From: Sulfuricurvum sp. 17-40-25 | GTDB lineage: Bacteria > Campylobacterota > Campylobacteria > Campylobacterales > Sulfurimonadaceae | NCBI GenBank assembly: GCA_002282015.1 | Contig: NCIJ01000008.1 | Coordinates: 668-64,667 of the forward strand | DNA length: 64,000 nt | Reading direction: 5' to 3' | Shown: positions 40,967-46,661 of the stretch, piece after piece | Position numbering within the stretch: position 1 is the stretch's first letter | Layout of the letters: each line of letters begins with the position of its first letter | Notes under the pieces: model-generated | What the model was told of the DNA's origin: nothing | Seen by the model: the letters and a program-made list of their open reading frames with translations, nothing else | The model's database searches: none | Translations under genes and position numbers: made by a program

Positions 40967-42940
40967 TTATAATTTCCTTATTTTTGCTATTTCATCGCGC
41001 AGTCGTGCGGCTTCTTCGAATTCGAGTTTTTTGGAGGCTTCTTTCATTTTGATCGTAAGCTCATCTACCAGTTTTTTACGTTCAGCCGCTGGAAGTGTCT
41101 TGGCTTTTTTCGATCGATTATACAGTTCGCCTACATCTTCGAGTTTTAGATTTTCATCCAAAGATCGTTTGGTCGTTATGGGTGTGATTCCATGTGCTGC
41201 ATTATGAGCCTCTTGTACAGCTCTGCGATCATTGGTCTTTTTGATAGCACGTTCCATGGAACCGGTTATTTTATTGGCGTAGAGGATGACTCTTCCACGT
41301 GAGTTACGTGCTGCACGTCCGATGGTTTGGACCAATGAAGTTTCGGAGCGTAAAAAGCCCTCTTTATCCGCATCCAAAATCGCGACGAGACTCACTTCGG
41401 GTAAGTCAAGTCCTTCGCGAAGAAGATTGATACCGATAAGGACATCAAAATCCCCCACACGAAGTCCCCGTATGATCTGGTTGCGTTCTATGGTATCGAT
41501 CTCAGAGTGCATGTACTGTACTTTTATCCCCAGATCCGCGAGATATTTTGTGAGAGCTTCTGCCATTTTTTTGGTCAAAACGGTGAGCAGTACACGATCC
41601 CCCAAGGCGACGGTTTTTATGATCTCATCATGGATGTCTTCTACTTGATTGGTAGAAGATTTTATGGTGATAGGTGGGTCAAGTAATCCTGTAGGACGGA
41701 TGACTTGTTGAGCAACCGTAGTGCTAAGCTCCAACTCTTGCAGTGCAGGAGTAGCAGAGACGAAGAGATAGTGAGGTGATTTTGCTAAATATTCATCGAT
41801 CATCAGCGGGCGATTATCCAGAGCGCTTGGGAGGCGAAAGCCATAATCCACGAGCACCTCTTTACGGCTACGGTCGGCGGCATACATTCCCCGAAACTGT
41901 GGCAGACTCACGTGCGATTCATCGACGATGATGAGGAACTTATCATGATGTAATGTGAAATAATCGAGTAGGGTATAGGGTGCTTCACCAGGAAGCTTAT
42001 CGGTCAAGAGACGTGAATAGTTTTCAATTCCCTTACACATCCCCGTTGCTTGCAGCATCTCTAGATCAAACTCACAGCGTTGACGCAGGCGTTGGGCTTC
42101 GACTATTTTACCTTGAGCCTCGAGCTCTTGCAGTCGCTCACCCAGCTCGTCTTCGATGCGCTTGATCGCACGGGAAAGTTTCTCTTGACCCACGGCAAAC
42201 TGACTCGTGGCGTAGATGGTAACGCTGTCATGTTTTTCGGTCACCGCGTTGCTAAGCGGTTCAAAATAGATGATCCGTTCGACTTCATCTCCGTAGAACT
42301 CAACGCGTATCGCTTGATCTTGCCAATAGGGAGGATAGATATCGATCACCTCGCCATTGACCCGCATATTCCCACCATCAAAATAGGCATCGTTACGGGT
42401 ATATCCCATTTCTACAAGACGTAAAAGAAGTTGCTTTTGATTGATCTCATCCCCTACAGCGATAATCTGCACCATCTTCTCATACTCTTCAGGATCACCC
42501 AACCCGTAGTTTGCAGAGACGGAGGCTACGACGATAACATCATCATAGCTTAGGAGATTGGCAGAAGCAGATAGACGCAAACGCTCGAGTTCTTCATTAA
42601 TAGAGCTGTCTTTTTCGATGAAGAGGTCTTGTCTGGGAATGTACGCTTCCGGTTGATAGTAATCATAATACGATACAAAATACTCAACATGGTTTTGTGG
42701 AAAGAAACTGCGGAACTCACTGTACAACTGTGCTGCCAGAGTTTTATTATGGGTCATGATGATCGTCGGCAGCTGAACGCTTTCGATGACCTTGGCCATA
42801 GTGTACGTTTTACCGCTACCTGTGACACCTTCTAGTGCTACAAAGCGTTCACCACCTTTGATAGCACTGCTAAGTGCTTCGATGGCGACGGGTTGATCAC
42901 CGGCGCTTTGATATGGGGTATGGACTTTAAAAATCGGCAA
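40967..42940 (-). CDS. uvrB: Excinuclease ABC subunit B
   Basis: A 657-residue nucleotide-excision repair helicase that verifies damage after UvrA loading. Domains: Walker A GVTGSGKT (~39-46), the beta-hairpin region [20 protein letters not shown] (~85-104), helicase motifs ([45 protein letters not shown]) and a C-terminal UVR domain ([14 protein letters not shown]). The start is TTG, as in the duplicated fragment at 46338-46661. This full copy directly abuts the stress-gene island and may be the recombinant version. Confidence 0.97.
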
Positions 42941-43221: not shown

Positions 43222-44005
43222 TTACCCAACTTTAAAACAGCGCATTGAAAGTGTTCCATGTTGAAATCCTTCGTAAACTGTACGAATAGTTTCTCCTTCT
43301 CTTTGTGATCCTAATATAGGTAAAATTGGAAGATAATGTTCCAGGGATGGATGCGCATGGGCGAAATGTGGTAGATCAAAATCGATCAGTTTTTTATGGT
43401 CATGTATGAGGGCATCCGAAAAAGCATTATCAAATTCTTGTGCCCACTTTACTCCTGGGGCATCCCGATCACTTTTGGTATCTCCAAGGTTATGGGTAAC
43501 ATTGCCGCTTCCGATGATCATGATGCCTTGATCACGAAGGGTAGAAAGGGTTTTCCCTAGATCATAATGTTCTAAGGCAGGTTTGCTCATATCGATTGAG
43601 AGTTGAAAAACAGGAACATCATGTTTGGGAAAAAGATGAACCAATACTGACCATGCCCCGTGATCAAGCCCATGACGCCGATCAATACAAGCATGAGTGA
43701 GTTCTCCTAATAATAGAGCTGCTGCTATTTCACCTTGTAAAATCATGGATGGTTTCCGGTTTGTCAACTACCGAAACGATAGAACCGTTTGTTGCCCAAT
43801 GAGCAGAGAGGATCAAAAGCGCTTTAGGTTTGGCGAGGGTAGTTCCTAGTTGTTTCAAGCTTCGGGTATAGGCATTGTCATCGACGATATTCATCGGTGA
43901 ACCATGGCTTATAAAAAAGGCACTTTGACGCATGGATGGACTCCTTTGTTCTGTTGCATTGGCAGCCAAAGCCGCCATAAGTGTTAAAAAATAACGACGG
44001 TTCAT
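43222..44005 (-). pseudogene. DODA-type extradiol dioxygenase (LigB/YgiD family), broken by deletion and frameshift
   Basis: Two frames cover one gene. The N-terminal part (44005 to 43730) has FFISHGSPMN and LILSAHW with the metal-binding histidines and stops after PETIHDFTR. The C-terminal part, in another frame, has LDHGAWSVLVHLFP, IGSGNVTHNL and SLEHYLPIL to a normal end. Compared with E. coli YgiD as I remember it, about 20 residues (the GGFP...YPAPG segment) are missing at the junction, so loss of ~60 bases changed the frame. The start region carries a Tat-like leader (MNRRYFLTLMAALAANA) and an internal AAAGGAG before ATG 43933. A sequencing error alone would not explain the missing segment. 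Confidence 0.8.
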
Positions 44006-44023
44006 AATAACCTCATTAGCATA

Positions 44024-44242
44024 TCAATTGACGGTATGGCTTCCGTCACAAAATGGAGCATTTTTACTCTTTTTACAGCGGCAGAGATAATAATCTTTTG
44101 ACTCTTCCACAGTAAATATCGATGGAATAAAATCTGTCCCTTTATGGGCACCATCACACAATACTCCATCTGCGCTTTTACTACAAGTGCAGTAATAATA
44201 TTTTTTGCCGGCTTCTAAATTCATTTTTACAGGTGTTGACAT
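44024..44242 (-). CDS. Double CDGSH iron-sulfur domain protein
   Basis: A 72-residue protein made of two CDGSH motifs: CTCSKSADGVLCDGAH (~19-34) and CRCKKSKNAPFCDGSH (~54-69). Each supplies the three-cysteine, one-histidine ligand set for a [2Fe-2S] cluster, as in mitoNEET relatives. It is likely a redox or iron-sulfur transfer protein. It sits 18 bases before the dioxygenase and 24 bases after yceI in one operon. Confidence 0.9.
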   Translation of the reverse strand: MSTPVKMNLEAGKKYYYCTCSKSADGVLCDGAHKGTDFIPSIFTVEESKDYYLCRCKKSKNAPFCDGSHTVN

Positions 44243-44266
44243 AATTTTTCCTTTTTTAATAATGGC

Positions 44267-44836
44267 TTACTTAGCCAAAATCCCTTCGAGTTGGATATCT
44301 AGTTTAACTGTTTCTCCAACAGCAACTCCGCCAGCTTCTAAAACTGTATTCCATGTAATGCCATAATCTTTACGATTTAGTTTACCGCTAAGCCCTAAAC
44401 CCACACGTTGATTTCCCCATGGATCTTTTATGATTCCATTGTTTTCAAAATCTAAAACAACGTTTTTGGTAACACCGTGGATGGTTAGCTTTCCATAAGC
44501 GCTATCGCCTTGGACTTTGTCTAGTACAAATATAATTTCCGCGTACTTTTGTGCATCAAACAATTCGGCTGATTTCAAATGAGCATCACGTGTTGCATTA
44601 GCTGTATTGATTGAAGTAGCTTCAATTTTACCATTTAGTGATTTAAGCGTTTTAGTTTTTTCATCGTATTCAAATGCACCAGTGAATTTATCAAATTTGC
44701 CCGTAACATCAGAAATCATCATATGTTTCACTTTAAAACCAATATTTGAGTGACTCGCATCAACATCATAGTGTCCCGCGAAAAGTGATGCAGATCCAAG
44801 TAGTGTAATGGCTACCATAGTAGTGATTTTTTTCAT
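44267..44836 (-). CDS. YceI-family periplasmic lipid-binding protein
   Basis: A 189-residue protein with a Sec signal peptide (MKKITTMVAITLLGSASLFA, cleaved near residue 20) and one YceI domain, a lipocalin-like barrel that binds polyisoprenoids such as ubiquinone precursors. Landmarks are DASHSNIGFKVKHMMISDV, GKLTIHGVTKNV and KLNRKDYGITWN. Family members are often induced by base or osmotic stress. It lies 30 bases after pirin. Confidence 0.92.
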   Translation of the reverse strand: MKKITTMVAITLLGSASLFAGHYDVDASHSNIGFKVKHMMISDVTGKFDKFTGAFEYDEKTKTLKSLNGKIEATSINTANATRDAHLKSAELFDAQKYAEIIFVLDKVQGDSAYGKLTIHGVTKNVVLDFENNGIIKDPWGNQRVGLGLSGKLNRKDYGITWNTVLEAGGVAVGETVKLDIQLEGILAK

Positions 44837-44866
44837 TGTATTTCCTTTTTTATATAATAAATAGTG

Positions 44867-45649
44867 TTAGTGCATAGGCACATCAAATAACAAAACCTTA
44901 GACTCTGTAAGAGCTAAAAGAGTGTATTCCTCCTTATCTGTGATTTGAAGCTCGTCTCTGGCTTCAAGAATATGACCGTTAATCTCTACTTCCCCTTCGA
45001 TAATAAATACCAATCGCCCATGATCTTTTTTTACGTCGGGGATTGATATTTTTTTACTTTCGTTTACTGCAGTTAAGTAGATAGCAGCATCTTGTTTAAT
45101 AGTAATAGAATCTTCACGTCCGTCACCGCTGATAAGTACGACCCATTGATTATTTTTATCGTGATGATAAAAGTCATGCTGATCATAGCGAGGAACTCCA
45201 CCCTCTTGATTTGGATAAATCCAGATTTGAAAAAGTTCAGTATCTGAGGTTTCCATTGCATACTCTGAATGAAATATTCCCGATCCTGCACTCATATATT
45301 GAATTTCACCTGCTTTTATGACGCCATGGTTGCCTTGGGAATCACGGTGCTCCAAAAAGCCTTTAGTGACGATAGTGATAATTTCCATATCCTTATGTGG
45401 ATGCATATCAAATCCCATTCCGGCGTCAATGAGATCATCATTAATAACGCGTAAAGCTCCAAATTGCATACGATTAGGATTGTGATAGTGTGCAAATGAA
45501 AAACTAAAACGGCTATGTAACCAGCCATGTTCTGCTATACCACGTTCTGTAGAACGATGAATTTTTAATGACATATTTTTCTCCTTTGTATTCGCATATA
45601 GACCTAAGGGTAAGATAGACACTATTTGCATAAATGTTCTGCGATTCAT
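44867..45649 (-). CDS. Pirin-family protein with Tat-like leader and internal start
   Basis: The core (from ATG 45574, 235 residues) is a pirin: a bicupin with the N-terminal metal site pattern FDMHPHKDMEIITIV and HRDSQGNHGVIKAGEIQYMSAGSGIFHSE. Pirins act as iron-dependent redox proteins or quercetinases. An in-frame leader from ATG 45649 (preceded by AAAGG) adds MNRRTFMQIVSILPLGLYA, which looks like a twin-arginine signal. AAAGGAG lies within this leader seven bases before ATG 45574, so two forms could be made. The operator-like site 45661-45681 is just upstream. Confidence 0.88.
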   Translation of the reverse strand: MNRRTFMQIVSILPLGLYANTKEKNMSLKIHRSTERGIAEHGWLHSRFSFSFAHYHNPNRMQFGALRVINDDLIDAGMGFDMHPHKDMEIITIVTKGFLEHRDSQGNHGVIKAGEIQYMSAGSGIFHSEYAMETSDTELFQIWIYPNQEGGVPRYDQHDFYHHDKNNQWVVLISGDGREDSITIKQDAAIYLTAVNESKKISIPDVKKDHGRLVFIIEGEVEINGHILEARDELQITDKEEYTLLALTESKVLLFDVPMH

Positions 45650-45660
45650 ACTCAAGCCTT

Positions 45661-45681
45661 TAATTACTAACTAGTACTATT
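45661..45681 (-). promoter_or_regulatory. Putative MarR operator before pirin
   Basis: Minus strand AATAGTACTAGTTAGTAATTA. It contains the palindrome TAGTACTA and matches the site upstream of marR in 15 of 16 positions over TAGTACTARTTAGTAA (R = A or G). The placement 12 bases before the long pirin start fits promoter repression. Confidence 0.6.
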
Positions 45682-45694
45682 TAGGCAAATTTTT

Positions 45695-46144
45695 TTATTG
45701 TGCTTTTTCGAGTTTACGTAATAAACGTGAGAGACTTTGAATCTCTTCTTCATTCAGTGCTGCGTCATACATGCCTGTTAAATTTGCCACATGTTCATGG
45801 AATATTGATTTCATAATTCTTGACCCGTTTTCGGTTATCTCAAGAATCTTAATACGACGATCTTCATCTGAGGGAATGGATTCTATCAGTCCTTTAGACT
45901 CAAGATTTTTAACGACTACCGTAATATTGCCGGGTGTGCTAAGTGTTAATTTGGTAATCTGACCAACACTTAATTTTCCAAGATGGTATAAAGATTCTAA
46001 AATACCAAATTGAGGTAAAGTAAGATCACGATCGGCTAACCATGCTGTTTCTTTTGAACGGATTTTTGTAAGAGATCTTGAAAGCTCGATATGTGCACGT
46101 AAGACAATATCTTCATGGCTTCCATAACTTTTTGCACGTTTCAT
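45695..46144 (-). CDS. MarR-family transcriptional regulator
   Basis: A 149-residue winged-helix repressor. The core LTLPQFGILESLYHLGKLSV and LTLSTPGNITVVVKNLESKG gives the recognition helix, and SDEDRRIKILEITENG is the typical wing. No conserved OhrR-type N-terminal cysteine is seen, so ligand binding rather than thiol oxidation is more likely. It heads the pirin-yceI-CDGSH-dioxygenase genes, with paired palindromes before itself and before pirin. Confidence 0.9.
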   Translation of the reverse strand: MKRAKSYGSHEDIVLRAHIELSRSLTKIRSKETAWLADRDLTLPQFGILESLYHLGKLSVGQITKLTLSTPGNITVVVKNLESKGLIESIPSDEDRRIKILEITENGSRIMKSIFHEHVANLTGMYDAALNEEEIQSLSRLLRKLEKAQ

Positions 46145-46337: not shown

Positions 46338-46661
46338 TTAAGCGGCTTTATCCCAGTGCATGTACGCCTCAGGTTGGTAGTAATCGTAGTAGCTTACAAA
46401 ATACTCAACATGATTTTGAGGAAAGAAACTTCTAAACTCACTGTACAGCTGTGCCGCAAGTGTTTTGTTGTGAGTCATGATGATCGTCGGCAGCTGTACG
46501 CTCTCGATCACCTTCGCCATAGTGTACGTTTTACCGCTACCCGTGACACCTTCTAGGGCTACAAAACGCTCACCACCTTTGATAGCACTGCTAAGTGCTT
46601 CGATGGCGACGGGTTGATCACCGGCGCTTTGATATGGGGTATGGACTTTAAAAATCGGCAA
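46338..46661 (-). pseudogene. Truncated uvrB copy (first ~98 codons)
   Basis: From the TTG start the reading frame encodes the same residues as the complete UvrB through [10 protein letters not shown], then switches to MHWDKAA and stops. It keeps Walker A (GVTGSGKT) but lacks all helicase and UVR domains, so repair activity is not possible. Promoter and start region are kept. Synonymous differences include a Ser codon switch (TCG against AGC) in VSYYD, showing that the two copies come from diverged lineages and not from a recent duplication. Confidence 0.92.

Follow-up and report, generated by a model that had tools for sequence, protein, structure and literature searches.

Putative paired translation starts at Tat-like leaders of a pirin and an extradiol dioxygenase in a Sulfuricurvum operon

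The operon and its two leader-bearing enzymes

The analysed stretch of Sulfuricurvum sp. 17-40-25 (64,000 nt, hereafter the window) carries, on its minus strand, an operon in the order MarR-family regulator, pirin, YceI-family protein, CDGSH-type open reading frame and LigB/DODA-type extradiol dioxygenase. The regulator (45695..46144; Pfam PF01047, 1.4e-15) is the first gene of the operon, and a TAGTACTA..TAGTA box (45664..45679, minus strand), recognised by sequence comparison, is the probable MarR operator. The pirin (quercetinase-like, long form, 260 aa; 44867..45649) exceeds the cut-offs for both the Pirin and the C-terminal cupin domains (PF02678 1.5e-33; PF17954 6.8e-20), and is followed by the YceI-family protein (44267..44836; PF04264 2.5e-43; Sec-like signal peptide by inspection), by the small CDGSH-type protein (44024..44242; read from the sequence by its ..CDGSH.. 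motif and absent from some relatives) and by the dioxygenase (43222..44005), which is frameshifted. The first 300 bp of uvrB are duplicated on the far side (46338-46661 vs 42639-42938, 91% identity; intact copy at 40967-42940), so that the operon is flanked by the complete uvrB on one side and by a copy of its 5' end on the other; in G001 the operon is likewise found directly upstream of uvrB. A literature search on pirin and Tat, or on pirin together with YceI and MarR, returned nothing relevant.

An earlier reading of this DNA (the sequence-only reading) had proposed that both enzymes begin with MNRR-x-F and a hydrophobic leader, and this is what we found (MNRRTF/MNRRYF in the two genes), the leaders having the expected lengths of 25 codons in the pirin (MNRRTFMQIVSILPLGLYANTKEKN; 45575..45649, minus strand) and 24 in the dioxygenase (MNRRYFLTLMAALAANATEQRSPS; 43934..44005, minus strand). 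The N-termini read MNRRTFMQIVSILPLGLYANTKEKN-MSLKIHRS and MNRRYFLTLMAALAANATEQRSPS-MRQSAFFISHGSP, respectively. Each leader contains AAAGGAG as a candidate internal Shine-Dalgarno (SD) site (pirin: 45581..45587, -8.9 kcal/mol; dioxygenase: 43941..43947, -8.4 kcal/mol, built on an AGG Arg codon; both on the minus strand), and the in-frame ATG (45572..45574 in the pirin; 43931..43933, MRQSAFFISHGSPMN, in the dioxygenase; minus strand) follows after 6 nt and 7 nt, respectively, rather than after the 7-8 nt previously given. Both internal ATGs do fall at the usual family start: leaderless pirins begin there (MSLKIHRS) and the NF007914 match of the dioxygenase begins at residue 25. An Ala-containing cleavage-like site had been attributed to both leaders; it is recognisable in the dioxygenase (ANA type) and poor in the pirin. 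That each leader has a ribosome-binding site of its own is weakly true, as the anti-SD duplex energy at the first ATG is -3.3 kcal/mol in the pirin and -6.3 in the dioxygenase, and approximately 0 kcal/mol in the dioxygenases of several relatives. Since this site is weak in most relatives and the first dioxygenase start lies 2 nt after the YceI stop in G013 and G002, this start may rely on translational coupling to the upstream gene.

The sequence-only reading had missed a frameshifting deletion of 41 bp in the window dioxygenase (deletion point 43739..43740, minus strand), which becomes apparent when the gene is aligned with its orthologue in G013 (89% identity in the 3' part). The NF007914 match is split over two open reading frames (84.6 and 141.2 bits in two frames, with no full-length match in one frame), whereas the intact G013 orthologue reaches 255.7 bits vs a cut-off of 233. 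Because the 3' part is still under purifying selection in the comparison with G013 (pS 0.36, pN 0.06), the deletion is either recent or an assembly error. No full-length dioxygenase is possible from either start in the sequenced genome, and therefore only the pirin can have two functional starts in this strain; the dual-start case for the dioxygenase rests on its relatives and not on the window gene. The suggestion that one gene could give an exported and a cytoplasmic form is partly supported, both starts being conserved among relatives, and does not apply to the window copy of the dioxygenase.

The twin-arginine motif of both window leaders is followed by a hydrophobic position, and their 11-residue hydropathy (2.0 and 1.9) compares with 1.8-2.35 in five PF10518 proteins of the same genome; the range of h-region values (1.7-2.6) overlaps that of the genome's own Tat leaders. 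TatC is encoded in this genome (PF00902, 2.1e-65). For Tat signals both leaders are short, and profile searches with PF10518 and TIGR01409 (G000) placed neither of them above cut-off. Since neither profile flags them, we assign the leaders to Tat by motif, and predict export because the RR pair never varies, an h-region follows and the genome encodes TatC.

Leaders and internal starts among relatives

Leaderless pirins are numerous among the orthologues (most of those examined have no leader), and those of the same genus begin exactly at the internal ATG, with a similar SD site. The TAGTACTA..TAGTA box is found ~34 nt before the core ATG in several leaderless pirins, and in G000 and G030, whose genes have the leader, this distance is ~105 nt, which places the leader between the box and the SD site. 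Nine leadered pirins were compared (G000, G013, G002, G001, the second copy of G030, and G230, G330, G418 and G307, the last four being genomes of another genus within the same family), and all nine retain the RR, AAG-GAG and the ATG while the remaining leader diverges. The RR pair is the sole invariant feature of the pirin leader besides the SD codons, and the 9/9 occurrence of AAG-GAG is to be set against a usage of 22% and 40% for these codons. In three of the four g27 pirins the first ATG is itself preceded by a strong SD site (-9.3 to -9.5). The G034 pirin has lost the leader start and the RR, and its internal SD site and ATG are intact. On the tree the leader is patchy (three places, 3 changes), and as the pirins are mostly leaderless, the probable history is either an addition of the leader to a gene already equipped with an SD site and a start, or its repeated loss from such a gene. 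An NRR stretch upstream of Sulfurospirillum-like pirins was dropped from consideration, as it has neither a hydrophobic part nor a start codon.

In the dioxygenase, leader, RR and internal site are kept together in 8/8 leaders of Sulfuricurvum and in G207, which belongs to another family (56% core identity), and these dual-form genes constitute a single clade (support 100/99). The Arg codon that carries the internal site is AGG in all eight Sulfuricurvum leaders, vs 2-3% of Arg codons in general, and the residues around this frozen codon vary (EQRSPS, EERSLI, PTRKPF, PKRNLI). Synonymous divergence is lower in the leader than in the core for most pairs, and the leader itself has a pN of 0.15 vs a pS of 0.40. 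As with the G034 pirin, a natural loss is on record: the leader of the G020 dioxygenase has decayed and the internal start is retained. The more distant dioxygenases are either leaderless or carry MTR[KNQH]-x-F leaders with no internal start, in which the second Arg is replaced (TRK/TRN/TRQ/TRH). As such start-less leaders are widespread in the order, it may be the internal start that is derived in the dioxygenase, and pirin and dioxygenase may have arrived at the same design by different routes. The comparison of homologues suggested by the sequence-only reading (are the RR motif and the internal site both kept?) hence yields a mixed, mostly favourable picture, with all leadered pirins, the Sulfuricurvum dioxygenases and G207 on one side, and the many leaderless pirins and the start-less distant dioxygenases on the other.

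Five of the distant dioxygenase leaders (L059, L060, L067, L068 and L070) have, within the hydrophobic region, an in-frame ATG with a GGAGG-type sequence a short distance upstream; this sequence, which derives from a Gly-Gly pair, may have arisen by chance from the amino acids.

Chance, codon constraint and an order-wide pattern search

AAAGGAG occurs 8 times in the 64 kb (both strands), and in only 5 of these cases does a start codon lie 4-9 nt downstream. Among 1378 internal in-frame ATGs, an anti-SD energy of <= -8 kcal/mol was found in 2.0% and one of <= -5 in 14%; the anti-SD tail was taken from relatives, in four of which it was confirmed, as the 16S end was not found in the G000 assembly. 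By comparison, 10/10 pirins have an internal SD site at <= -8.3 and 10/10 dioxygenases at <= -5.2 (each set of ten comprising the leader-bearing genes and one leader-decayed gene, that of G034 or G020, with the sequences within clades being related). A strong SD site at codons 16-40 was present in 3 of 390 sampled genes (three genomes; background of 464 kb, made up of the window and a further 400 kb; 134 genes with a hydrophobic N-terminus), namely the window pirin and two genes that read as non-leader, cytoplasmic enzymes. Resampling of synonymous codons gave P values of 0.017-0.094 per sequence for the pirin and 0.0045-0.30 for the dioxygenase (lineages not independent), so that the internal sites are unexpected in most lineages, with individually modest P values. 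The RR pair is invariant in the 9 pirin and 9 dioxygenase leaders (18/18 dual-start leaders compared), and its Arg codons vary.

For the order-wide search we used a strict DNA pattern (M-x-R-R, 27-57 nt, AAGGAG, 5-8 nt, ATG), which returned 16 matches in 41 Sulfuricurvum genomes; those that were in-frame, stop-free and leader-like belonged only to the pirin, in 5 genomes, and to the dioxygenase, in 3, and the other matches were rejected as out of frame, stop-interrupted or non-leader. Extended over 399 Campylobacterales genomes, the pattern recovered only one further leader-like in-frame family, a glutathione peroxidase of genus g27 (order-wide matches with no fetched locus being judged by hand from coordinates and letters). 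This protein (MTRRTFTIVLMALLTLSLQNCAKENT-MTDIYAIDVERIDG; L246, G230:C1:698510-698590, minus strand; also L247) has an RR/lipobox-like leader (LQNC) that contains AAGGAG, and an internal ATG at the domain start, the Pfam domain beginning three residues after the internal Met. On the basis of the SD energies, the codon constraint, the order-wide search and the 390-gene sample we reject a chance co-occurrence of leader and internal site. Selection on both starts is supported by the invariant RR with varying codons, the frozen AGG, the 9/9 AAG-GAG and the two leader-only losses, which favours the earlier argument that one design in two unrelated families suggests selection.

A pirin from Pontiellaceae (Kiritimatiellota; L169:3986-4070) was also found to have a Tat-like leader (ETRRTFMAASTATVVAAGAKEHK-M), in which AAGGAG precedes the ATG by six nt, so that the design recurs in another phylum.

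Proposed dual initiation and its alternatives

We consider it fairly probable, judging from the comparative evidence, that both genes have two starts and give, by dual initiation, a Tat-exported and a cytoplasmic isoform. Initiation at the first ATG would produce an enzyme whose short twin-arginine leader directs it, already folded, out of the cytoplasm or keeps it at the membrane, and ribosomes binding the SD site in the last leader codons would begin at the second ATG and produce the ordinary cytoplasmic enzyme. Under the control of MarR, in an operon that is probably phenol/quinone-responsive, the same chemistry would be supplied to both compartments, presumably with both starts used in one cell. 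Given the families of the two enzymes, the control by a MarR regulator and a neighbouring YceI protein that is probably periplasmic, we infer that the purpose may be to shield both compartments from catechol, quinone or peroxide stress.

It could be argued that the internal start is the only one of importance, that the leader is a dispensable relic or an upstream reading frame captured recently, and that almost all of the protein is cytoplasmic. The decayed leaders of G034 and G020, the weak SD sites at many first ATGs, the abundance of leaderless pirins and the lack of a Tat profile match are all compatible with such a view; nevertheless, a relic would hardly keep its RR and hydrophobic stretch across genera through synonymous changes, evolve at the pN/pS given above for the dioxygenase leader, define one well-supported clade that reaches the distant G207, or be preceded by a strong SD site of its own as in three of the four g27 pirins, and we regard this explanation as unlikely. 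The opposite possibility is that only the long form counts: all of the enzyme would be exported, and the internal SD-ATG would be left over from an ancestor or would act as a pause site in aid of targeting. This seems to us more improbable still. SD-like sequences within coding regions can slow ribosomes, and the pirin leader does sit exactly upstream of the SD site used by leaderless orthologues; however, a relic should drift, which neither the AGG nor the AAG-GAG codons have done, a pause site needs no in-frame ATG at 6-7 nt, and two lineages now depend solely on the internal start.

A further alternative concerns the leader and keeps the dual initiation: the leader may be of Sec type or an uncleaved membrane anchor, in which case one product would be soluble and the other bound to the membrane or exported by Sec. 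The negative Tat profiles, the replacement of RR in the distant dioxygenases and the lipobox-like leader of the g27 glutathione peroxidase point in this direction, whereas the standing of RR as the one invariant element of the pirin leader outside the SD codons, and the clearer Tat character of the Pontiellaceae pirin leader (TIGR01409 15.4 bits vs a 16.7 cut-off), speak for Tat; we give this alternative a low probability, similar to that of a functionless leader. As a generalisation of the Tat-based dual initiation, an SD site and start codon embedded at the end of a Tat-type leader could be a device that evolution has used recurrently in Campylobacterota, and on at least one occasion in Kiritimatiellota, to obtain a periplasmic and a cytoplasmic product from a single gene for a redox or ring-cleaving enzyme (pirin, DODA dioxygenase and glutathione peroxidase), a proposition that we put forward tentatively and hold to be somewhat short of probable.

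Dual targeting by alternative starts is a textbook phenomenon in eukaryotes, with few bacterial examples, mostly of single genes. The closest known case is PA2699 of Pseudomonas aeruginosa, for which Ball et al. (PMC4899797) described Tat and non-Tat forms from two AUGs (both used from a plasmid). The upstream AUG has a canonical ribosome-binding site and adds a Tat leader with the motif RRHFL and cleavage at ANA, and the authors regarded PA2699 as possibly the first case in bacteria of a protein whose two localisations are determined by a pair of start codons. The likeness lies in the two in-frame AUGs of which the upstream one adds a Tat leader; PA2699 differs in being a single gene of an unrelated family with a 47-codon leader, whereas the design described here is kept over genera, is shared by two enzymes of one operon that are unrelated to each other, and reappears elsewhere in a third family. 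In Salmonella, signal-less N-terminal proteoforms of PagC and OmpX were found by Ribo-RET (PMC11005335), and there too an internal in-frame start removes the export signal, although these are outer-membrane proteins with Sec signal peptides and the present cases are soluble enzymes with Tat-like leaders, recognised through comparative evidence alone. With respect to their own families, the pirin core is that of an ordinary pirin with a C-terminal cupin domain (PF02678 + PF17954), only a subset having the leader, and the dioxygenase core matches the 4,5-DOPA extradiol dioxygenase family (NF007914, YgiD-like), to which a leader with an embedded start is added here, in a copy that is broken in the window.

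What is new is the conservation over genera and the recurrence in unrelated enzymes: both starts have apparently been preserved by selection across genera in two enzymes of one operon, both of detoxification type, for which one gene may supply the exported and the cytoplasmic enzyme, and an unbiased pattern search has added a third family. The pattern can serve as a simple rule by which bacterial enzymes with dual localisation are recognised from sequence, and single-start annotation will mislocalise enzymes of this kind.
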